A DNA stretch of 34,657 bases from the NCBI GenBank assembly GCA_030539175.1, contig JAUNSN010000010.1, positions 1 to 34,657 of the forward strand. The letters run 5' to 3'. Positions within the stretch are counted from its first letter, which is position 1. Every line of letters begins with the position of its first letter. This DNA is from a bacterium (GTDB lineage Bacteria; Bacillota_I; Bacilli_A; RF39; UBA660). Below are positions 12,246 to 34,657 of this stretch, one piece after another. The translations under genes were made by a program, and so were the position numbers. The notes below the pieces were generated by a model, which was not told the DNA's origin, searched no databases, and was given only the letters and a program-made list of their open reading frames with translations.

Positions 12246-13811
12246 ATGAGTGATTATTTAAATAAGATTTATAATGTCGGTGTATATATAAGATTATCGG
12301 CGAGTGATGATGATAAAACAATGATGAGCGAAAGTATAACTAATCAAAAAAGTTTACTAACTCAATATATATCCGAAAATAATTTAAGAGTATATGATTA
12401 TTATATTGATGATGGTTTTAGTGGAACAAACTTTGATAGACCTGCCTTTAACAGATTATTAAGTGATATAGAAGCAAATAAAATTAATATGGTTATTACT
12501 AAAGATATGTCTAGGCTTGGTAGAGATTATATTGGTACTGGTAATTTAATTGAAAAGTATTTTCCTGAACATAATGTTAGATATATTGCCGTAACTGATA
12601 ATATTGATACTTTTTTAGATAATTCTAATAATGATATTGCCCCATTTAAAGCAATAATGAATGATATGTATGCTAAAGATATATCTAAAAAAATAAAGTC
12701 TAGTTTAACTGCAAAAATGAAAGATGGTAAATATGTAGGAGGTAGATGTCCATTTGGATATAAGAATGATCAAACAGATAAGAATCATTTAATCATAAAT
12801 GAAGAACAAGCGGTTATAGTTAGAAGAATATTTGAGTTATCACTAAAAGGATTAACAAGCTATAAAATTGCAAAGAAACTAACTGAAGAAAATGTTAAAA
12901 CACCTGCTCTTTATTATGAGTTTAATTGGAGAAGTAATTATAATAAAAAAATAGGACAGTGGCATTCTAAAACAATTAAGGATATTTTAACTAATAGAAT
13001 TTATACAGGAGATTTAGTTCAACATAAAAGAATGAAAGTAAATTATAAAGTAAAGAAAGTAATAAAAGTAAATCCAATTAATCAAATAGTAGTAGAAAAT
13101 ACACATGATGCAATTATTGATAAAGAAACATTTAATGAAGTACAAAAAAGGTTACCTAAGAATATAGGAAGAAACGAAAAGAAAGAACACCATTTATTAG
13201 ATGGATTACTTTATTGTGGAGACTGCGGTCATAGAATATCAGTCACACCTAGAAGAAAAAAAGATAATAGGTGTTATACTATATGTAATTATTATAGAAC
13301 ATATATAAATAAAAATTATTGTACAACACACTCAAATAATTATGATACATTAGAAAGTATGATTATAGATACTTTAAAAGATATTTGTTTAAAGTATGTA
13401 GATAACAAAAAAATAAAATCAAAAGTAATTAATAATTTAAATGAAAATAATAAGTATTTATATAAAAAAGAAATAAAAAAATTAGAAAATGAAATTCAAA
13501 ATATAAATGATAATTTAGATAATATATATATTGATAAATTAAATAAAAAAATAACTGAAGAGCAGTTTGTTAGAGTAAAACTTAAATTAGATAATGAATT
13601 AAAATTAAAGCAAAAGAAATATACTGACCTAAATAATAATTTATTAGATACTCAAGATAATGAATCTAAAAGCAAATTAATAGATAATTATATAGATGAA
13701 TGTTTAATTATGAAAAAATTATCAAGAGAGTTAATCGTTAATTTAATAGATAAAATTATTATATATGATGATAAAAGAATAGATTTGAAAGTTTCTTTTA
13801 ATATAGAATAG
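12246..13811 (+). CDS. Large serine recombinase (site-specific integrase/excisionase)
   Basis: A 521-residue large serine recombinase. Domains: resolvase catalytic domain (about 8-155) with the nucleophile S18 in GVYIRLSAS, DDGFSGTNFDRPAF and DMSRLGRDYIGTG, then a recombinase DNA-binding domain (about 165-270; GGRCPFGY), a zinc ribbon (about 320-360; CGDCG, later C and C) and a coiled coil (about 390-480) rich in K, E, N and L that controls synapsis direction. All landmark residues are present and the length is full, so it should be active. It is the only recombinase in the interrupting unit, so the natural enzyme for its integration and excision. It is transcribed toward the right end but located 1.4 kb from the left junction, not right at an end as is usual, which fits a composite element. 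Confidence 0.95.
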   Translation: MSDYLNKIYNVGVYIRLSASDDDKTMMSESITNQKSLLTQYISENNLRVYDYYIDDGFSGTNFDRPAFNRLLSDIEANKINMVITKDMSRLGRDYIGTGNLIEKYFPEHNVRYIAVTDNIDTFLDNSNNDIAPFKAIMNDMYAKDISKKIKSSLTAKMKDGKYVGGRCPFGYKNDQTDKNHLIINEEQAVIVRRIFELSLKGLTSYKIAKKLTEENVKTPALYYEFNWRSNYNKKIGQWHSKTIKDILTNRIYTGDLVQHKRMKVNYKVKKVIKVNPINQIVVENTHDAIIDKETFNEVQKRLPKNIGRNEKKEHHLLDGLLYCGDCGHRISVTPRRKKDNRCYTICNYYRTYINKNYCTTHSNNYDTLESMIIDTLKDICLKYVDNKKIKSKVINNLNENNKYLYKKEIKKLENEIQNINDNLDNIYIDKLNKKITEEQFVRVKLKLDNELKLKQKKYTDLNNNLLDTQDNESKSKLIDNYIDECLIMKKLSRELIVNLIDKIIIYDDKRIDLKVSFNIE

Positions 13812-20022: not shown

Positions 20023-20123
20023 TTTTCCAGTAACACTTAATGCTGAGGATATTGCCAAAACTTAAAAAATACATAATAACTGGGGGCACTATGAATTATA
20101 AATTATTAAAAAATGATTTAAAA

Positions 20124-20152
20124 TTTCAAAAAATGCAATTCTATGATATAAT
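20124..20152 (+). promoter_or_regulatory. Candidate promoter for the ligase operon
   Basis: TTTCAA at 20124-20129, a 17-base spacer and consensus TATAAT at 20147-20152. It lies upstream of RBS aagagga and ATG 20184, which supports that start rather than upstream in-frame ATGs at 20040 and 20091. Confidence 0.55.
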
Positions 20153-20183
20153 AACAAGTAATATCAGGGAAAAGAGGAATCAT

Positions 20184-22019
20184 ATGAAATATTCAGAAAT
20201 ACAATCACATAGAGATAGCTATCCAAATGGTAGTTATGAAGAAATTGTAAACAATTCTAAACAAAAAGCTTTCGATTATATGAGAGAAAAAGCTAAAGAT
20301 GGATTAGAATACACTTCATTATCATATTTTGGGAATGAAATTAATTATTCAGAAATGTTTAAAAAAATAGAAATGTATGCTAATGCTTTAAAAAATTATG
20401 GGATTGAAAAAGGTGATTTTGTCACATTGTTATTACCTAATATTCCAGAAATTGTATACATTAAATATGCTTTAAATAGAATAGGTGCAATACCAAATTT
20501 AATAGATCCAAGAACAAATCCAGAAAGAATTATGATTTATACAAATGAATCTAAATCGAAATTAATGATTACTTCTTTGGAGGTTGTAAAAAGTAAAGTA
20601 GAACCAATAAAAGATAAATTAAAAGTTGATGATATTATAACTATATCAGCTGCTAATTCAATGAAATTTGGTGATACAACAAGTACAAAAGAGAAAATGA
20701 TGTACTTAGTTTTAATGTATAAAGAATTAGAATTAAGATTAAAAGAAAGTTTTTCTTCTAAAAAAAAGTATTTAGATAATGCTGAATTTTTAAGAAAATA
20801 TAGTAAATATATTTATAGTAGTTTAGATACTTTATATGAAGAAAATGATCCATTTACAGTATATTATACTAGTGGTACAACAGGTATTGGAAAAGGTGTA
20901 TTACAAAGTAACGAGTCTTATAATGCTATGGTAGAGCAAATGACTTTTGGAGCTAATGCTTCAAAATATCAAAAAGGAGAAACTTTTTTAGGATGTATTC
21001 CATTTTTCTTGTCTTATGGATCGTTAAGTGGGATGCACAATTCGTTATGTAGAAATTGGAATATACAAATGGTTCCTAAATTTGATCCAAATCAATTTGA
21101 TTTACTTATAAAGCAATATAAACCAAATAATGTTTTAGGTGTACCAAGATGGTGGGAAACAATAATAAAAAATCATAATGTTGATGATATAGATTTTTCT
21201 TTCCTAAGGCGTCCTGTAACTGGTGGAGGAAAGGTATTGCTAGAATCTGTAACAGAACTTAATAGTTTCTTTAAGGAGCATGGATCAACTGCAATTTTAA
21301 AAATTGGTTATGGTGCTAGTGAATATGGTGGATGTGTTGCTTCAACATTAGAAGATTTTGGAGAATACGTTCCATATTCATCTGGTATATTACTATTAGG
21401 TTGTTTTGGAATGGTAATAGACCATGAAACAGAAGAAGAAAAAGAAATTGGTGAAACAGGAGAACTATGCATCAGTTCACCTTCTATGATGAAAGAATAT
21501 TTAAATCATAAAAAAGAAACAGATGAAATAACTGTATACGATAAAAAAGGTAACAAATACTTTAAAACTGGTGATATGGGATATATTGATGAAAAAGGAA
21601 ATGTTTATGTAATAGATAGATATAAAAGGATAATGATAAGGCCTGATGGACACTCAGTCACATCTAGCCCGATTGAAGAATTGATAATGCAAAATCCTAG
21701 AGTTGATGATTGTGTAGTTGTGGGATTAAGGCAACTTGGTGTATCAAGTACAATTCCAACAGCTTTTATAAAATTAAAAAACAACAATGATAATTTTGAA
21801 ATGGTAGTAGATGAAATAGACGAAGTATCAAAAGTAAAACTTCCAGAAAGAGACAAAGCCCTTGCTTATGTTCAAACAGATGAGATGAAATATAATTTGC
21901 TAGGTAAAGCTGATTATAGACTATATGAAAAAATTCCATTTGAAGAAGCTGAAACTATCATAAAAGATTATACATTTTTCCCAGGAACAAAAGGGAAAGT
22001 ATTAAAATTAAAAAAATAA
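20184..22019 (+). CDS. AMP-binding acyl-CoA ligase-like enzyme
   Basis: 611 residues from ATG 20184, in the acyl-adenylate-forming (ANL) superfamily. These enzymes activate a carboxylate with ATP to an acyl-AMP and pass it to CoA or a carrier thiol. Motifs: A3 YYTSGTTGIGKGV (about 226-238), GYGASEYGG (about 375), A7 KTGDMGYIDEKGN, A8 IDRYKRIMIRPDG and a C-terminal GKVLKLKK carrying the catalytic lysine. The N-terminal LPNIPEIVYIKYALNRIGAIPN is typical of long-chain or aryl acid ligases. The substrate cannot be told. The histidine-kinase-like gene follows after 32 bases, probably in one operon. There is no carrier protein nearby. Confidence 0.88.
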   Translation: MKYSEIQSHRDSYPNGSYEEIVNNSKQKAFDYMREKAKDGLEYTSLSYFGNEINYSEMFKKIEMYANALKNYGIEKGDFVTLLLPNIPEIVYIKYALNRIGAIPNLIDPRTNPERIMIYTNESKSKLMITSLEVVKSKVEPIKDKLKVDDIITISAANSMKFGDTTSTKEKMMYLVLMYKELELRLKESFSSKKKYLDNAEFLRKYSKYIYSSLDTLYEENDPFTVYYTSGTTGIGKGVLQSNESYNAMVEQMTFGANASKYQKGETFLGCIPFFLSYGSLSGMHNSLCRNWNIQMVPKFDPNQFDLLIKQYKPNNVLGVPRWWETIIKNHNVDDIDFSFLRRPVTGGGKVLLESVTELNSFFKEHGSTAILKIGYGASEYGGCVASTLEDFGEYVPYSSGILLLGCFGMVIDHETEEEKEIGETGELCISSPSMMKEYLNHKKETDEITVYDKKGNKYFKTGDMGYIDEKGNVYVIDRYKRIMIRPDGHSVTSSPIEELIMQNPRVDDCVVVGLRQLGVSSTIPTAFIKLKNNNDNFEMVVDEIDEVSKVKLPERDKALAYVQTDEMKYNLLGKADYRLYEKIPFEEAETIIKDYTFFPGTKGKVLKLKK

Positions 22020-22051
22020 AAGAATAAAATAGAATTTGGGTAGGTGATATT

Positions 22052-23842
22052 ATGAATCCGTATGGAATTTGTTCGTTTTTAATTAGTTTATTATTATTGT
22101 GTAGTTATTTTTCTAAAAAAAGATTTCAAAGTCCAGAAAACAAAATATATGATATGATGATAATTAGTTCTTTTTTCAGTTCATTATTTAGTATTTTTGC
22201 GTATTTTACAACAGCACATCATGAAATGTTTCCTGATTATATCTTATTACTGCCAAAAATATTCTTGATATTTTTAATTATTTGGGGAACAAGTTTTTCA
22301 TTATATTTGATATATATTTCAACAAAAGAAAAAGAATTAAATGGTTGGAAAATACTTAAGTTTTTATTTGTAACAATTTCATTAATTGCTTCTATTTTAG
22401 TTTTGTTATTACCTATGGAATATTATAGTGATAATGGAAATGTATATACCAGTGGAAGTAGTGTAAATATTGCTTACATACTAGCTACATTATATTTTGC
22501 TATTACTTTAATATTTATAATTAGAAATGCAAAAAAGCTTTTTGATAAAAGATATGTTCCTGTTTTTTCTTTTGTAATATTATTTATATTAGCAATAACT
22601 ATCCAATATTTAAATCCAGAGTTATTAATTATTACATTTATTATTTCTTTTAATACAATGATAATGTATTTTACAATAGAAAATCCAGATGCTCGTATGC
22701 TAAAGGAATATGAAAATGCAAAAGATATATTGAATAATACAATTGCAGAAAAAGAATTATTTGTATTAAAAGTTTCACAAAACATAAAGAATTATTTAAA
22801 AAAAATTGGTAGGATATGTTATGTAAATCAAAATGAAACTGAAATAAACGAACTTCAACAAGGATATATTGACATAGACAAACAAAAAAACGCTATTGAA
22901 AATACTATAAATAATTATTTAGATATTTCATATCAAGAAAAAAGTATGTTGAATATTTCAAATATAAATTATCTAACTGAAATTTTAATAAATGAAATCA
23001 TGTTATTATTTAAAGGGAAGCTGTCTATATCAAACAAGGATATATCTTTTAATTATAATATATCTAAAAACCTACCTATTTCACTTAAAGGTGATAAACC
23101 AAGAATTAAACAAGTTATTATGACTCTTTTGAATAATGCATTAAAGCATACTGAACAAGGGTATATAAATATGGATATATCATCAGAAGTTAAGGGTAAT
23201 AATTGCGAATTAATCATAACTATAGAAAATTCTGGGAAAGAAATAGATGTTAGTGATTACAATGAACTATTTAATAAGGATAAAATATATGAGTCTGGAA
23301 AAGTTGATTATTTAAAAGAAAATCTTGCTTCAGTTAATTACATAATAAAGTTAATGGGTGGGACAGTAATAGTTAATAGTAACAAAGAAAAAACTGCTGT
23401 CACAATTCATTTAAATCAAGAAATAATAGAAAAACAAAGTGATTTTCATAAAGATTTAAATAAGAAATATAATAAACCTAATATTGCTACAGTTATAAAT
23501 GATGAAAAATTAAAAGAAAAATATGAAAATATTTTTCAAGATAGTAAGTTTGATGTTCATCATTTAAAAAATGTAGGAGAACTTATGAGAATGATTAGAA
23601 AACATCAAATTTTGGATGTAATAATTCTTGAAGAAAATTTACCTATAACAGATGGAGTTGAAACTTTACATAAAATTAAAGATGAGGTTGGGGATGGTAT
23701 ACCTGTTTTTATAATCAAACAGAATAAACACTTTAATACCGATAGTGAATATCTTAAGGAAGGATTTTGTGGAACATTTAACTTAAAAGAAAAAAGTAGT
23801 ATAATATATAACAGGGTAGTAGAATTAATCAATAAGGAATAA
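22052..23842 (+). CDS. Degenerate hybrid histidine kinase (7TM, HATPase, receiver)
   Basis: 596 residues. Seven hydrophobic helices (about 4-21, 34-53, 65-89, 101-121, 138-157, 170-187, 191-208) resemble the 7TM sensor of some kinases. A dimerisation region (about 230-295) then aligns with HisKA, but the phospho-histidine position in SHEIRTPLN reads SQNIKNYLK, giving Q243. The HATPase domain (about 345-457) keeps the N-box LLNNALKHTEQG, but the G1 box is IENSGKEID. The receiver (about 475-590) has E527 (DVIILEENLP) where the phospho-aspartate belongs. It probably cannot autophosphorylate or accept phosphate, so it may be an allosteric sensor. RBS taggtgat. It is coupled to the ligase gene. 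Confidence 0.85.
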   Translation: MNPYGICSFLISLLLLCSYFSKKRFQSPENKIYDMMIISSFFSSLFSIFAYFTTAHHEMFPDYILLLPKIFLIFLIIWGTSFSLYLIYISTKEKELNGWKILKFLFVTISLIASILVLLLPMEYYSDNGNVYTSGSSVNIAYILATLYFAITLIFIIRNAKKLFDKRYVPVFSFVILFILAITIQYLNPELLIITFIISFNTMIMYFTIENPDARMLKEYENAKDILNNTIAEKELFVLKVSQNIKNYLKKIGRICYVNQNETEINELQQGYIDIDKQKNAIENTINNYLDISYQEKSMLNISNINYLTEILINEIMLLFKGKLSISNKDISFNYNISKNLPISLKGDKPRIKQVIMTLLNNALKHTEQGYINMDISSEVKGNNCELIITIENSGKEIDVSDYNELFNKDKIYESGKVDYLKENLASVNYIIKLMGGTVIVNSNKEKTAVTIHLNQEIIEKQSDFHKDLNKKYNKPNIATVINDEKLKEKYENIFQDSKFDVHHLKNVGELMRMIRKHQILDVIILEENLPITDGVETLHKIKDEVGDGIPVFIIKQNKHFNTDSEYLKEGFCGTFNLKEKSSIIYNRVVELINKE

Positions 23843-28365: not shown

Positions 28366-28585
28366 GAAACAATATAAGCTTTATATTCTTTTCGTTAAAC
28401 TACTTAGATAATGAAACATATCCGTTAAAGTTGGCGTTTGCTGACAGTGAATAGATGTCAACGACGTTTACAATTGTTCGTGTAAAAACATCTCTTAAAA
28501 AATTTAATTCCATATTTTTTTAATTAAAATATTTAAGCTTCATTAAAGTTAATCATAACTAATATGATTAATTAAGGTGATAATT

Positions 28586-29680
28586 ATGTTTTTAAAAAAT
28601 ATTCATAAAAGAATCAAGATAATATTTTTAATAATTGTCTTTGGCTTTATCTTAATTATTGCCAAAGTCTTTTATATTCAAGTAATTGATTATAACAAAT
28701 TAAATGATTTAGCCAATGACTTGTGGAGCAGAAATCTCCCTATTGAAGCTGATAGAGGAAGAATATACGATAGTAGTAAAATGCTGTTAGCAGATAATTT
28801 AACTACCACTTCTTTAGTGTTAATACCCAACCAAATTACTAATAAAGAACAAGTGTCTAGTGATTTAGCTGAAATATTAAATGTAAGTGTCGAAGAAATG
28901 GAAAAACACGTCTATAAAAAAACATCTATTGAACGAGTTCATCCAGAAGGAAGAAGATTAAGTTTTGAAGTCGCCGATAAAATCGACAGTTTAAAACATG
29001 ATGGAGTATATTTGGTAAAAGAGTCAAAACGATATTATCCTTATGATACCATGTTATCACACGTTCTTGGATATGTTGGTATTGATAATCAAGGGCTTTC
29101 GGGACTAGAACTTCAATATAATGATTACTTAACTGGCGAAGGTGGAGCAATAAAATATTACTCTGATGCTAAAGGAGAAAGGCTTACTTTGTCAGAAGTG
29201 TATGAAAAACCACAAAACGGTATTGATATAATGCTCACTATTAATTATGATATACAGTCAGTAGTAGAAAGAGAATTAGATAATGTAGTTACTAAGTATA
29301 ATCCCGATAATGCTTTAGCCATTGCTATGAACCCCAATAATGGTGAAATTCTTGCCACGGCGTCAAGACCAACATTTGATTCTAATAACTATCAAAATTA
29401 TACTATTGAAGAAATTAGTCGAAATCTTCCTATTTGGGCGACATATGAACCAGGCTCGACATTTAAAATAATAACGCTTGCTTCCGCATTAGAAGAAAAA
29501 ATAGTTGACTTAGAAAAAGATACTTTTTATGATAGTGGTTCTATTAGTGTTGAGGGAGGAAGAATAAAATGTTGGAAAGCTGGTGGCCATGGGTTACAAA
29601 CTTTTTTACAAGTTGTAGAAAACTCCTGTAATCTTCCAGTCAATACAAGAACATTTTTAGATTTGTTGAAAACCCTTTAA
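28586..29680 (+). pseudogene. SpoVD/PBP2-type class B penicillin-binding protein, truncated
   Basis: 364 residues where about 580-650 are expected. N-terminal membrane helix (about 10-32), the class B motif RGRIYDSSKMLLADN, the PBP-dimer domain (SHVLGYVGIDNQGLSGLELQ) and the start of the transpeptidase domain with active-site serine S291 and K294 in PGSTFKI. The SxN motif S347-C348-N349 is reached (VVENSCN), then the frame becomes LPVNTRTFLDLLKTL and stops. The KTG motif and the rest are absent in all frames. RBS aaggtgat precedes ATG 28586. Homologues include SpoVD (spore cortex) and PBP2B/FtsI (septum). SpoVD is favoured because losing the septal enzyme should be lethal. The break near 29632 is probably the left edge of an insertion. 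Confidence 0.85.
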
Positions 29681-29703
29681 ATTCAATAAAAAAGGAAACT
29701 ATC

Positions 29704-30568
29704 ATGGAAGTTCATACTTCAAATGTTTTTACTCATAAAGGAAAATATTACGAAACTTTCCTCACCGATGATACACCAAACACAACTTCGTATTTTACAT
29801 TTAATTATAAAAAAGAGAGGATGAGAATAAATAACAAAATGTATCATATAAACACTAATGATTATCAAAGTTTGACTGCCAACAAAATGATTCAAGTAAT
29901 AGAATATTATAATAGATTTGAAAAGTATATTTTAGATACAGATAAAAAGATAATAAGAAATTATTTGAAAAAAGGTATTGTGTTTAAATATAATAAAAGA
30001 ATTATAGAAGTTCTTATTAAAGAGAAAGAATTAACAATAGTATTTCTTAATATAGTAAAAAAATATGATTCTGATAATCTTGGTTATATTTAGAAAAAGT
30101 TATGAAAAACATGCTTTATCTTATGCAATCAATGTCAGTGATGAAAAAACTTTACAATATGCTATTATGCTTTTTAAAGCAGAATATGAATTATTAATTG
30201 ATCCTTTTAAAGATAATTTGGTTGTAGATTTACAAAATGAATTATCAAAAAGAATAAAAGGGATTAGTAGTTCTATTGTAAAGAAAAAACTTAATAAAGG
30301 TATTGTATTTAAAACAACGAGAAATTTTGTTATTTTAGAAAAAAGAAAATATGGCATTCGTGTAAGATTATCAAATGTTGAAGATAATGAAAATGTTTTA
30401 AAAGAAGTAGGTAGAGGTAGTTATGATCATTTATGTAAGTATTATAATGTAATTAATTATGCAGATATAGAAAAAATATTACCTTATGTTAGAGAAAGTT
30501 TTGAATTAACTAAATATAACATAAATGATGTCAAGTCAGGTATATATAAAATGTATGCTAATAAATAA
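29704..30568 (+). pseudogene. Tandem DUF5655-like protein, frameshifted
   Basis: Two overlapping frames make one protein. The first (29704-30093, MEVHTSNVFTHKGKYYETFL) holds a domain with RNYLKKGIVFKYNKRIIEVL and ends at TAG 30091. The second continues from about 30083 (FRKSYEKHALSYAINVSDEK) and holds a second domain with VKKKLNKGIVFKTTRNFVIL, RVRLSN and YDHLCKYYNVINYADIEKIL. Both halves follow the pattern of DUF5655-type domains, often found in predicted transport or restriction-linked proteins. Aligning the halves shows the first domain is only complete when the frame shifts by one base near 30085. RBS aaaaagg. A terminator follows. It could be a sequencing error. Confidence 0.65.
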
Positions 30569-30588
30569 GGAAGAATAATCTTCTTTTT
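30565..30588 (+). terminator. Terminator after the DUF5655-like gene
   Basis: aaggaaga (30565-30572) and tcttcttt (30577-30584) pair over 8 bp (one G-U) around ataa and run into a T-tract. Confidence 0.75.
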
Positions 30589-30622
30589 TTATGGTGAAAC
30601 AATATTAAAATATCTTGGGATG

Positions 30623-30631
30623 TGATATAAT
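30623..30631 (+). promoter_or_regulatory. Extended -10 promoter of the nucleotidase-radical SAM cluster
   Basis: TGaTATAAT at 30623-30631 lies 38 bases before ATG 30670. The -35 is poor. It comes directly after a terminator, so the genes from 30670 onward probably form their own operon. Confidence 0.6.
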
Positions 30632-30669
30632 AGTATAAATTTTAAGTATCTTTAAATGCGGAGGTTAAA

Positions 30670-31167
30670 ATGTTTATTATAGAAGAAATAAAAAAGAAAA
30701 CTATCAATTATAATTCAAATGAAATTGCTATATTTATTGATATGGACGGTGTTGTAGCGGATTATAGATTTGGAGAGGGAGATAATATAAAAAATAATAA
30801 GCCTGGTGTATATTTAAATAAAAGACCAATTAATACAACAATTAGTATTGTTAAAGAAATAAAACAAGAATTAAATTGTGAAATTTATATACTAAGTTCT
30901 TGCTTTTATAAAGAACAATCTATAGAAAAAAGCATGTGGATTGATAAGTATATGCCATTTATAAATGAAAAAAACAGGATTTTTACTATTGCTGATAACT
31001 TTGAATCAAGAAAAATGTTAAAAATTGATGCAATAAAATCAAAAATGATTTCTAATAAATTGAAAAAAGCTATATTTATTGACGATACTCATGATATATT
31101 GTTTTTAGCGATTAAAGAATTAGGTGATAAAATAATTCCATTTCATGTTATTACTTTATTAGATTAG
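30670..31167 (+). CDS. HAD-superfamily 5'(3')-nucleotidase-like phosphatase
   Basis: 165 residues. The HAD motif I IFIDMDGVVADY (about 21-32) has nucleophile D24 and acid/base D26, and the DMDGVVAD form is typical of NT5C-type 5'(3')-deoxyribonucleotidases. Motif II is the serine in IYILSSC (about 73-79). Motif III/IV is AIFIDDTHDIL (about 134-144), with a preceding lysine. It has no signal peptide. In this family the substrate is a nucleoside monophosphate, which fits the adjacent kinase-like gene at 34110. RBS ggaggt precedes ATG 30670. The radical SAM gene follows after 14 bases. Confidence 0.8.
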   Translation: MFIIEEIKKKTINYNSNEIAIFIDMDGVVADYRFGEGDNIKNNKPGVYLNKRPINTTISIVKEIKQELNCEIYILSSCFYKEQSIEKSMWIDKYMPFINEKNRIFTIADNFESRKMLKIDAIKSKMISNKLKKAIFIDDTHDILFLAIKELGDKIIPFHVITLLD

Positions 31168-31181
31168 GGAGGTGTATAAAA

Positions 31182-32687
31182 ATGTATGATGTTATTGTTG
31201 GTTGCTATACTGATGAGCCATCTGGATTGGGTGTTCCACCATATTTAAGTGTTCATTCAAGATATATTGCCGGTGCATTAAAAATTAAAAATATTAAATA
31301 TTATTATTTGAATATAGATGATCTAAGATTTGCTAATGGAGAAATAGATGCAAAAGATACTTACAATAAAAGGATTATAAATAGAACTAAAAATTGTAAT
31401 AATGTCAAAAAAATTCTTCAAAATGCAACAAATATTTATGTAGTAATGGGGTGTTTTGTAAAATATGAATATGTTTCAGCTGAGCCACCAAGCTTTTTAG
31501 AAGTAGAAAAACTATTAAATTGCTTTTCCAATATCCAAACAAATAAAGTATTATTTTATTCTTTGGGTGGTAATGAATTGACAAGAGAAAATGTCAGAAA
31601 AACTGTTCCTAATAATTTGTTTAATGAAATTGTTTTTGGAAATACATATAATTATTTTCTTAAAGAAACTAAGAATTTCTTTCAACCAAACTATGATAAA
31701 TTAAGAGAAATATCAATTGCATCTTCCTCAATGTTAGAACAATTAAAAAGACCTCTTGTAATTGAAATAGAAACAGCAACAGGATGTAATAGAAAACCAG
31801 GATGTACTTTTTGTATTGAAGGAATGAGAGGGTTACCTTTACAATTTAGACCTGTTGAAGACATAGTGAACGAAATAAAAAGTTTATATGATGCCGGGGC
31901 TTTATATTTTAGACTTGGTAGACAACCTAACTTTTATGCGTATATGGATTGTAATCCTGATAAGATAGAAACTTTATTTAAAAGGATATGGCAAGAGTGT
32001 CCAAATATTAAAACACTTCATATAGATAATGTTAGTCCTCATAATGTTAATACTCCTGAGGGAAAGAAAATTACTAAAATTGTTGCAAAATATACTACAG
32101 CAGGAAATATCACACCATTTGGTATTGAATCTTTTGATCCTGTTATAAGAGAAAAATGTAATTTAAATGGTTCTATTGAAGATATTCATAAATCTATAGA
32201 AATTATAAACAAATATGGACAACAAAGAGGGGAAAATGGGTTACCAAAGCTATTACCAGGAATTAATATAATTTATGGATTAGATGGGCAAACAAATAAA
32301 ACTTTAGATTATAATTTGAAAAACTTAAAAAAAATATTAGATTCTGGAAATTGGGTAAGAAGAGTTTTTGTAAGAAAACTAACTTCACCTTATGGTGAAC
32401 AGTTTGATAAATATACAGAAGAAGAACTAAATGAATTTTTATATTGGAGTAAGACAATTGAAAAAGAATTTATTATTCCAATGTTAAAAGAAGTATTCCC
32501 TATAGGATTGGAAATAAGTGAACTTAGAATGGAAATGTATAAAGATGGTAATTCTATTTTAAGACAAATGGGTACTTGTCCAGTTCGTGTGATTATTGAA
32601 AATAAAAAATTAAAGCTTGATGAATTTTATAAAGTGAAAGTTGTAGGTCATATAGGAAATAGAACTATTATAGGTGAATTGATATGA
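31182..32687 (+). CDS. Radical SAM enzyme resembling COG1031 (archaeal-type)
   Basis: 501 residues. The N-terminal domain (about 1-190: YDVIVGCYTDEPSGLGVPPYLSVHSRYIAGAL) looks like the conserved opening of COG1031 proteins, known mostly from archaea. The radical SAM core starts with IEIETATGCNRKPGCTFC, where C201, C207 and C210 (C-x5-C-x2-C) bind the 4Fe-4S cluster. This spacing is wider than the classic C-x3-C-x2-C and is that of the archaeal relatives. Later blocks are FRLGRQPNFYAYM, LHIDNVSPHNVNTPEG, PFGIESFDPVIREK, LLPGINIIYGLDGQTN and RRVFVRKLTSPYG. Its reaction is unknown. The stop overlaps the next gene by four bases. RBS gggaggtg. Confidence 0.85.
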   Translation: MYDVIVGCYTDEPSGLGVPPYLSVHSRYIAGALKIKNIKYYYLNIDDLRFANGEIDAKDTYNKRIINRTKNCNNVKKILQNATNIYVVMGCFVKYEYVSAEPPSFLEVEKLLNCFSNIQTNKVLFYSLGGNELTRENVRKTVPNNLFNEIVFGNTYNYFLKETKNFFQPNYDKLREISIASSSMLEQLKRPLVIEIETATGCNRKPGCTFCIEGMRGLPLQFRPVEDIVNEIKSLYDAGALYFRLGRQPNFYAYMDCNPDKIETLFKRIWQECPNIKTLHIDNVSPHNVNTPEGKKITKIVAKYTTAGNITPFGIESFDPVIREKCNLNGSIEDIHKSIEIINKYGQQRGENGLPKLLPGINIIYGLDGQTNKTLDYNLKNLKKILDSGNWVRRVFVRKLTSPYGEQFDKYTEEELNEFLYWSKTIEKEFIIPMLKEVFPIGLEISELRMEMYKDGNSILRQMGTCPVRVIIENKKLKLDEFYKVKVVGHIGNRTIIGELI

Positions 32688-33337
32688 AAAAAATAGGACT
32701 TCTTATTCCTAAAACAAATTTAACTGTAGAATATGAATTGCAATATTTATTTAATAAGGGATTTTATGATTATAACAATATTTGTTTTTATGTTGCTAAA
32801 CTAGATTATAAAACAAGCTATAAAGATAACAAAGAACAGTTTTTAAAAGACTTAGCAAATGATGTTGAACAAAAAATAGAAGATTTAAAGTATTTAAATG
32901 TAGATTCCTTTGCATTTTTTTGTACATCATCAGCAATAAAAAATGAGAAAGTCAGTAAATATTTAACTCCTGCAGAAACGATTATTAAAGTTTCAAAAGA
33001 TAAAAATATTAAAAATTGTTTGCTTATAACTCCTTATAATGATAAAATAGGGCACGATGTTGCAAATTATTTAATGAATAATAATATTGTTGTAAAGAAA
33101 GAAATTAATTTAGATTTATTACATACAAAAGATTATTTCGAATATGGTAAAAATAAATTAGAAAAATTGATTGTTGAAAATTACAAAGATGAATATGAAA
33201 ATGTAATAATTTCCTGTACTAATCTGCCAACATTAGAAGCGATTGAATCAATAAAGAAAAAAATTAATATTAATATTGTGTCTAGCAATTCAAGTATGTT
33301 TGAAATTATAAAAGAAATTGGAGGCAACAATGACTAA
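32684..33337 (+). CDS. Asp/Glu racemase or maleate-isomerase-type enzyme
   Basis: A 217-residue member of the two-cysteine Asp/Glu racemase superfamily, nearest in pattern to maleate cis-trans isomerase and arylmalonate decarboxylase. It begins KIGLLIPKTNLTVEYEL (typical IGxxIPxxNxxxE). C80 in AFFCTSSA and C178 in IISCTNLPT occupy the two catalytic cysteine positions, so it should be able to carry out proton transfer at an alpha-carbon. The start lies in the radical SAM stop (ATGA at 32684-32687), indicating coupled translation. It probably acts on an intermediate made or used by that enzyme. The substrate is unknown. Confidence 0.78.
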   Translation: MKKIGLLIPKTNLTVEYELQYLFNKGFYDYNNICFYVAKLDYKTSYKDNKEQFLKDLANDVEQKIEDLKYLNVDSFAFFCTSSAIKNEKVSKYLTPAETIIKVSKDKNIKNCLLITPYNDKIGHDVANYLMNNNIVVKKEINLDLLHTKDYFEYGKNKLEKLIVENYKDEYENVIISCTNLPTLEAIESIKKKININIVSSNSSMFEIIKEIGGNND

Positions 33338-34088
33338 AGAAGAGTTTAAAGAAGTTATTAGAATTTGTAGTAATCAAGATGAAGTAAGAGATGCTGTAAT
33401 AAAAAATCATGATAATAATTTATGGTGGCCTATAGAAATAGAAGATTATAGGAAACGTTTATTAATTGCTGGATTATCGACTCGTATTTCTTATAATATG
33501 ATAGAAAGTTATAAAAAAGTTATATCAGATATTAATAAATATTCTTATGAAGAACTAAAAGAAATGAAAGAAGAAGAATTAATAAATTTAATTAAAGCTC
33601 TAGGTTTATCAAATTCTAGATATAAATATATTAAATCTATGATTAACTTTATTGAAAATAATGAAAAAGAAATATTAACATTAAATAATGAAGATTTAAT
33701 TTCTTTAATTGCAAATAATGTTAGTGGGGCTTCTTACAAAGTAGCACAATGCTGTGTTTTATATATGAAAGGATATTATTGTGGAATAATGCCTGTTGAT
33801 AGTGGTATGAAAGATGTTGAATTACCTTGTTTAGGATTTGAAAAATATGGGTCAGCTATAGGACATGATATATTGCGAAAAGAATTAGAAAGATTAACTT
33901 ACGATAATAACATGGAGGATATAATAAAAAAAAATGGATATTCAAAATTAAATATTCCTGATTGTAATAATGCTACATGGTGGGTACATCTTGTATTAAT
34001 TTATTATAAAAGAAATTTTTGTAATAAACATAATTCAGAATGTCCGTTGAATAACTACATAAATACTAAAAGATTATGTAAAAAGTAA
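33330..34088 (+). CDS. HhH-GPD DNA-glycosylase-like protein
   Basis: 252 residues from ATG 33330 (RBS ggagg). The middle resembles the endonuclease III/HhH-GPD fold: LLIAGLSTRISYNMI, ELINLIKALGLSNSRYKYIK, then a hairpin LIANNVSGASYKVAQ with K137 at the endonuclease III lysine position, and IMPVDSGMKDVE with D157 at the catalytic aspartate. The hairpin glycines (GVGxKTA) are poorly kept. C-terminal cysteines C231, C238 and C250 with ECPL partly match an iron-sulfur loop, but the fourth position is missing. It may be a base-excision enzyme or a glycosylase-derived enzyme acting on nucleotides. It overlaps the isomerase gene by eight bases. Confidence 0.7.
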   Translation: MTKEEFKEVIRICSNQDEVRDAVIKNHDNNLWWPIEIEDYRKRLLIAGLSTRISYNMIESYKKVISDINKYSYEELKEMKEEELINLIKALGLSNSRYKYIKSMINFIENNEKEILTLNNEDLISLIANNVSGASYKVAQCCVLYMKGYYCGIMPVDSGMKDVELPCLGFEKYGSAIGHDILRKELERLTYDNNMEDIIKKNGYSKLNIPDCNNATWWVHLVLIYYKRNFCNKHNSECPLNNYINTKRLCKK

Positions 34089-34109
34089 CGATTTAAGGGG
34101 GAAATAAAA

Positions 34110-34610
34110 ATGTTAATTATTGAGGGGATTGATGGAGTTGGAAAAACCACTCTTGTTGAACTTTTTCAAAAAGATGGTATGAAAAAATTCCATTTTGATT
34201 ATGATGCCAAAAATATGGATTTATTTAGTAAATACTTAAAAATTTTATCATTAGATGGTTTGAATGACTTAGCATTGGATAGATCTTTTGTTAGCGAAAT
34301 GGTTTATGGTCCAGTTGTTAGAAACAAATGTAAATTATCGTTAGAACAATATATAGAATTGCTAAGACAATATAGTTTATGTGGTGCTTACATTATTTAT
34401 CTAATTGCTCCAAAAGAAGCATTGCTTGCCAGAAGAAAAGATGATCCTAATGATTTAAGAATTATAGAAGAGTATTATGATCAACTTTCTTTACAATATG
34501 ATAGAATAATGCAATTATCATCAAATTACATTGAAGTATTACAATTTGATACATTTAAAAATGATGAAAATCAAATACAGAAGCAAGTAAGGAAGTTGAT
34601 TAAAAAATGA
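34110..34610 (+). CDS. Thymidylate-kinase-like P-loop kinase
   Basis: 166 residues, shorter than Tmk (about 205-215). Walker A is GIDGVGKTTL (about 6-15) in MLIIEGIDGVGKTTLVELF. A DR-S motif (LALDRSFVSEMVYGPVV, about 50-66) matches the Tmk nucleoside-binding Asp-Arg. YLIAPKEALLARRKDDPND carries a LID-type Arg-Arg. Such short proteins occur as nucleoside or deoxynucleotide kinases in phages and accessory loci. RBS aaggggg precedes ATG 34110. The next gene overlaps its stop as ATGA. Confidence 0.8.
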   Translation: MLIIEGIDGVGKTTLVELFQKDGMKKFHFDYDAKNMDLFSKYLKILSLDGLNDLALDRSFVSEMVYGPVVRNKCKLSLEQYIELLRQYSLCGAYIIYLIAPKEALLARRKDDPNDLRIIEEYYDQLSLQYDRIMQLSSNYIEVLQFDTFKNDENQIQKQVRKLIKK

Positions 34611-34657
34611 TTGATTTATGTTTTGCTGGAAATTGCTCAAATGATACAATCATAAAG
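34607..34657 (+). CDS. Start of a further gene, cut by the window edge
   Basis: ATG 34607 overlaps the kinase stop (ATGA, 34607-34610). The 17 visible codons read MIDLCFAGNCSNDTIIK. This opening is compatible with a PfkB/ribokinase-type kinase (xIGNxxxDxI), but it is too short to assign. It continues the operon. Confidence 0.5.
   Translation, partial: MIDLCFAGNCSNDTIIK

Follow-up and report, generated by a model that had tools for sequence, protein, structure and literature searches.

Recurrent cuts in sporulation genes of RF39-type bacteria suggest elements that are removed, and genes that are rejoined, only when spores are made

The spoVD gene of an uncultured RF39-type gut bacterium is carried in three pieces that are separated by two elements. 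The pieces are in phase and undecayed, a large serine recombinase gene stands at the right end of each element, the positions of the cuts recur in relatives, where recombinase clade matches target, and the same arrangement is found in spoVE, dacB, and cotE. The reading that is considered probable is that spoVD is held by two independent, skin-like serine-recombinase elements that are excised in the mother cell during sporulation; the excision is inferred.

The Interrupted Gene and Its Missing Pieces

The window, by which is meant the whole 34,657-nucleotide stretch of DNA that was analyzed, is contig C47 of a draft MAG (G000; 1.29 Mb, 95.8% complete, 79 contigs). Its GC-rich start (positions 1-60, CGGCTCGCGGGCGTCGG...) in a genome of 25% GC is a probable chimeric contig end.

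A class B PBP ORF of the window (28577-29680, best start ATG 28586) matches the PBP_dimer profile and only the first third of the Transpeptidase profile (positions 2-106 of 299). An earlier note, made from the window sequence alone, had read in it S291 and K294 of SxxK and S347-C348-N349, followed by unrelated residues and a stop, and these coordinates and motifs are right: N349 is the last native codon and is followed by 18 unrelated residues and the stop. The note had placed the cut at SxN, and homology does end at N349, with the precise cut falling within the Asn codon; it was also correct that the remainder of the window is without a KTG region. Against the SpoVD equivalog model TIGR02214, the window piece alone gives a partial match of 345.8 bits over model positions 3-346 of 636. 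As judged from these matches and those of the joined product described below, the window gene is spoVD. Upstream of it stands CATA, the -10-type box expected for sigma-E; in 81 orthologues from 81 species, it stands 20-40 bp ahead of the spoVD start far more often than by chance, with 79 seen as compared with 8.4 expected.

The suggestion that the rest of the gene lies beyond the window in matching phase was borne out, as both downstream pieces were found in the same genome, in phase. Besides four full-length PBPs and one weak match, a Transpeptidase search of the genome returned three partial matches, in the window (profile 2-106), on C25 (103-160), and on C43 (152-298). Where the note had envisaged one missing part and one element, the missing part exists in two pieces, so that spoVD holds two elements. 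The orphan KTG frame for which it advised a search is the C-terminal piece, a large serine recombinase gene adjoins the missing part as it had anticipated, and the short repeat it expected near 29626-29640 is present only as a very short shared core in the Asn codon. The same profile search gave no second or intact spoVD in this genome, and the division PBP is intact on C40, beside an rsmH-like ORF; of the finding that would have reduced the window gene to a plain remnant, an intact spoVD and pbpB elsewhere, only the second half is met.

The right end of the window and the left end of C25 share a 16-bp overlap (TGATACAATCATAAAG), across which a PfkB-like ORF is continuous, and the right end of C25 shares an exact 55-bp overlap with C43. 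The order is therefore spoVD-N, element 1 (8.7 kb), spoVD-M, element 2 (46 kb), and spoVD-C. The 55-bp overlap resembles a branch point of the assembly graph and stops at the crossover proposed for element 2, a hint that the sample may have held more than one continuation. When the three pieces are joined in silico, the product has 635 aa, the same length as the intact orthologue in G064, and scores 728.2 bits against TIGR02214 (cut-off 688), aligned over model positions 3-636 of 636; the intact orthologue, at 735.7 bits, is likewise above the cut-off. With the pieces and the cores in phase, removal of both elements would restore an intact frame.

Table 1. Positions of the spoVD pieces, of element 1 and its cargo, and of the sites of interruption in spoVD
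Feature	Position	Strand	Basis or remark
CATA box upstream of spoVD, sigma-E-type -10-like	28554..28557	+	enrichment among orthologues
spoVD 5' piece, residues 1-349 (PBP dimerisation domain, SxxK, SCN)	28586..29632	+	profile matches; joined product passes TIGR02214
Putative attL, left junction of element 1; crossover core AA inside Asn codon of SxN	29630..29632	+	break common to all site-B elements and filled/empty sister pairs
Element 1, left 5.0 kb; further 3.7 kb on C25, right junction C25:3688	29633..34657	+	16-bp contig overlap, continuous ORF
Cargo ORF, no confident family	29704..30093	+	
Cargo, weak DUF5655 match	30065..30568	+	
Cargo, NT5C/HAD-like	30670..31167	+	
Cargo, radical SAM protein	31182..32687	+	
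Cargo, arylmalonate decarboxylase / Asp-Glu racemase-like	32684..33337	+	
Cargo, weak HhH-GPD match, just under cut-off	33318..34088	+	
Cargo, deoxynucleoside kinase-like	34110..34610	+	
PfkB-like ORF, first codons; crosses contig join into C25 (C25:2-1555)	34607..34657	+	
spoVD-M, middle piece, 57 codons	C25:3688-3873		directly after large serine recombinase gene
spoVD-C, C-terminal piece with KTG and PASTA domain	C43:6500-7192		profile search
spoVD site A	between STF and K, the Lys of SxxK		
spoVD site B	between SC and N		element 1 of G000
spoVD site C	between VTPI and QQ		
spoVD site C'	between FGQ and G		element 2 of G000
spoVD site D	near residue 546		distant recombinase

The Two Elements and Their Recombinases

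At the right end of both elements, directly before the next spoVD piece, stands a large serine recombinase gene with Resolvase and Recombinase domains. The two recombinases belong to one subfamily, with about 50% identity to each other, and further members were collected with tblastn. A short conserved ORF without an informative Pfam match lies directly upstream of nearly every recombinase of this subfamily and is proposed as a possible directionality factor. No convincing sigma-E motif was found upstream of the recombinase modules.

Element 1 has cargo for nucleotide metabolism, together with a radical SAM protein. In its recombinase gene a single in-frame TAA, at about codon 55, follows the region of the catalytic Ser; the frame is otherwise intact, and relatives have no stop at that position. 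Unless the stop is an error of sequencing or a different recombinase steps in, self-excision may consequently fail in this genome.

Element 2 encodes a coupling protein (T4SS-DNA_transf, E 4.6e-60), a T4SS ATPase (HerA/VirB4-like, E 2.6e-11), and a weak Relaxase match just under the cut-off (E 3.5e-4, 21.3 bits as compared with 24.6), in addition to an M23 peptidase, a sortase, a helicase, and the serine recombinase. Its predicted gene content (coupling protein, T4SS ATPase, relaxase, recombinase) meets the description of an integrative conjugative element, for which there are no transfer data. Two further features were read from translations only, without a profile search. An EF-G/Tet(M)-like GTPase ORF (C25:7476-9509) lies in element 2 near radical SAM, alanine racemase-like, and LD-carboxypeptidase-like ORFs; and paralogous pairs, each an AMP-dependent ligase-like ORF with a histidine kinase-like ORF after it, occur in the window (20040-23842) and on C25 (16093-19831), the second pair inside element 2.

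Recurrence of the Same Cuts in Relatives

Relatives within the same family are of two sorts. In some, spoVD forms a single ORF of about 635-660 aa; in the others, its frame ends near residue 300, 350-390, or 420-435, and what is missing is encoded elsewhere, often further along the same contig. The recurrent cuts fall within or close to catalytic motifs (Table 1); sites A, B, and C are occupied in other genera with in-phase cores. The cut in the window is not a chance frameshift, since many other genera share this junction. The splits are contiguous on single contigs in G050 (sites B and C), G035, G019 (B), G020 (C), and G044 (A), and in G056 all three of sites A, B, and C appear to be occupied, on more than one contig. 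Of the 150 best matches listed in a scan of the family, about 47 had B- or C-type truncated frames (a manual count, with some at contig ends); about a third of the spoVD genes among the family matches listed are split. The spoVD genes found outside the family are intact.

Comparison of sister species, of which one has a filled and the other an empty site, shows sequences of about 78-94% nucleotide identity that diverge at the core. Across the subfamily, recombinase clade matches target (A; B with C'; C; dacB groups), requiring four changes for five states, which is the minimum. On the host tree, the interrupted or intact state has changed at least 15 times and is patchy between close species. 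One close relative in which spoVD is intact (L159) is Candidatus Coprosoma, placed in GTDB order RF39 (PMC8035907), so that the host, too, probably belongs to RF39. Two loci (L143:6191-6397 and L150:52-267) hold an extra copy of only the spoVD middle piece, bounded by sites B and C. It lies 3.6-6 kb upstream of an intact spoVD, with a B-type right end and a C-type left end on its flanks, and may be left over from a former split copy.

Other Split Sporulation Genes

The window genome contains five elements in four split genes (spoVD, a probable spoVE, dacB, and cotE), with all pieces in phase, and 5 of its 10 large serine recombinases sit in sporulation genes. The two cotE pieces lie 8.3 kb apart on C48, and the C piece comes immediately after a recombinase gene. 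The dacB gene, whose N piece is on C48 and C piece on C13, is split at SxxK, and is also split in three relatives (G025, G028, G060); the two ORFs that follow it are read by us as spmA and spmB, with no NCBIfam match. The SEDS gene that scores best as SpoVE is divided between PVTG and VTLPF, with its N piece on C66 and its C piece on C75. The truncated N piece reaches 401.1 bits against TIGR02615 (SpoVE), under the cut-off of 448.8 but the best among the SEDS models (ftsW 354.6), and the other two SEDS genes of the genome score best as FtsW and RodA. In Bacillus subtilis, spoVD, spoVE, dacB-spmAB, and cotE all belong to the sigma-E regulon of the mother cell (PMC517825).

The earlier note had suggested that, if the missing part lay beyond the window, spoVD would hold a second intervening element within 20 kb. 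A search around the intergenic stretches confirmed no other interrupted gene inside the window; the verified ones, spoVE, dacB, and cotE, are on other contigs. Another large serine recombinase (window 12246-13811) lies near restriction-endonuclease-like and AbrB/MazE-like ORFs, with no interrupted host gene recognized around it.

Several further observations concern possible targets. A partial duplicate of the dacB 5' piece lies on C48 (L221:2569-2760), with the cotE C piece on one side and the full dacB N piece on the other. A contig of the IMG/VR viral collection (L223, 1807-7598) has a dacB gene with two splits, and a recombinase of the subfamily precedes each downstream piece. The spoIVA gene appears to be in two pieces in G002, G046, G009, and G030 (for example, residues 1-122 and 122-492, or 1-127 and 120-492), partly at contig ends, and is possibly a further target. 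A class A beta-lactamase-like serine hydrolase ORF on C75 (6024-6296; L008) stops at 130 aa, soon after SDN, and is possibly another interrupted gene.

Proposed Excision and Alternative Readings

In the proposed mechanism, each recombinase would join attL with attR over the 2-bp core during sporulation, as with skin in sigK, perhaps helped by a directionality factor such as the conserved small protein encoded just upstream. Deletion of the elements from the terminal mother cell would restore the 635-aa SpoVD, and the forespore chromosome would keep them; as the restored gene would be needed only in a dying cell, the germ line would retain the elements. The att recombination, the directionality factor, the mother-cell deletion, and the restoration of SpoVD are inferred for these bacteria from the arrangement of the DNA. 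Excision between attL and attR in the mother cell has been shown experimentally for skin, SPbeta, and gin (PMC5595907, PMC4191935, PMC5025042).

With rather less assurance, we also lean toward a broader proposal, by which RF39-type bacteria would have a DNA-level switch acting on several genes: sigma-E-type genes (spoVD, spoVE, dacB, cotE, and in relatives possibly spoIVA) would be kept split by independent elements, up to three per gene, and spliced in the mother cell at each sporulation.

The alternative that survives best, although it is considered unlikely, is that these are plain mobile elements for which conserved sporulation genes, dispensable in vegetative growth, are safe landing sites. 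There would then be no regulated excision, the carriers would be non-sporulating, and a gene would be repaired only by occasional loss of its element. The patchy presence among very close species, the conjugative gene content of element 2, and the nonsense codon in recombinase 1 are all compatible with this, as is the failure to find an excised circle or rejoined copy, the attP pattern of element 2 being absent from the window genome and attP patterns from IMG/VR. (Three attP-pattern matches among the loci examined are on the minus strand, near a recombinase 3' end.) The state of the sporulation genes speaks against it. Spo0A and SpoIVA genes are intact in the window genome, and SpoIVA is present in all 20 genomes with split spoVD, in 27 of 30 with intact spoVD, and in 2 of 9 without spoVD (split against absent, Fisher p=2e-5). 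The downstream spoVD pieces remain open and show no decay, being as conserved as in intact genes: the ratio of C-piece to N-piece identity is 0.86 in split and 0.84 in intact genes (p=0.45). Retention of SpoIVA and undecayed C pieces argue against simple loss of sporulation, which the earlier note had raised as an alternative and which is not supported. Up to three elements per gene and four split genes in one genome would, moreover, require many losses of sporulation without decay.

It is very improbable that the three fragments are made separately and assemble into an active PBP without DNA rearrangement. All pieces are indeed open and conserved frames, but the middle and C-terminal pieces start within sequence of the catalytic domain, a cut at SxN would divide the transpeptidase fold, and in sister species the gene is a single ORF. 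That the contig is chimeric, or that spoVD has decayed and an intact copy exists elsewhere, is hardly credible even for a draft MAG of 79 contigs with spoVD pieces on three of them and odd GC-rich bases at the left end of the window, given the contiguous splits in five other genomes and the absence of an intact spoVD here. Excision of skin-like elements in the mother cell thus remains the preferred reading.

Relation to Known Systems

Among elements outside sporulation, the fdxN element of heterocyst cyanobacteria, with its recombinase XisF, is a serine recombinase element that leaves its host gene in a cell that has differentiated terminally. Recombinase 2 has XisF among its NCBIfam matches, at 62 bits and below the cut-off; host, gene, and recombinase subfamily are different. 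The best NCBIfam matches of recombinase 2 are CcrC and CcrB of SCCmec, at 114 and 87 bits far below the cut-offs of 900, and SCCmec inserts in rlmH, not in a sporulation gene.

That a conjugative element can land in spoVD is known from a secondary insertion of ICEBs1 in B. subtilis, a laboratory off-target event with undetectable excision (PMC3715440), unlike what is proposed here. It was the only interruption of spoVD found in a literature search that left most subscription papers outside, so that novelty of the target is likely and not certain. A 2024 survey described spoVD as reduced or absent in RF39 (PMC10868615). Escape of a split gene from orthologue calling is a possible explanation, and sporulation in uncultured gut bacteria may be under-predicted for the same reason. 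A further outcome is a collection of large serine recombinases whose target sites have been mapped, and it becomes possible to test whether elements tame themselves through their choice of genes that are used only in a terminal cell.

The sporulation genes listed as interrupted in the literature consulted are sigK, spsM, spoVFB, gerE, and yabG (PMC10747680, PMC5595907), a handful with one per case, as compared with four genes and five elements in one genome here and with one gene, spoVD, as a hotspot across many genera. The likeness is close: skin in sigK (B. subtilis and Clostridioides difficile), SPbeta in spsM, vfbin in spoVFB, gin in gerE, and yin in yabG are likewise large serine recombinase elements in sporulation genes for which precise in-frame restoration is predicted, and gin also has non-phage cargo (PMC5595907, PMC10747680), as do the spoVD elements. 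The recombinase gene, in contrast, is at the downstream (right) end here, whereas yin and the skin element of B. subtilis have it beside the 5' piece (PMC10747680). Different genes are involved (spoVD, spoVE, dacB, cotE), with two to three elements per gene and several genes per genome, in many genera of one family. The kind of element is thus known, while its targets and the presence of two to three elements in one gene appear to be new.
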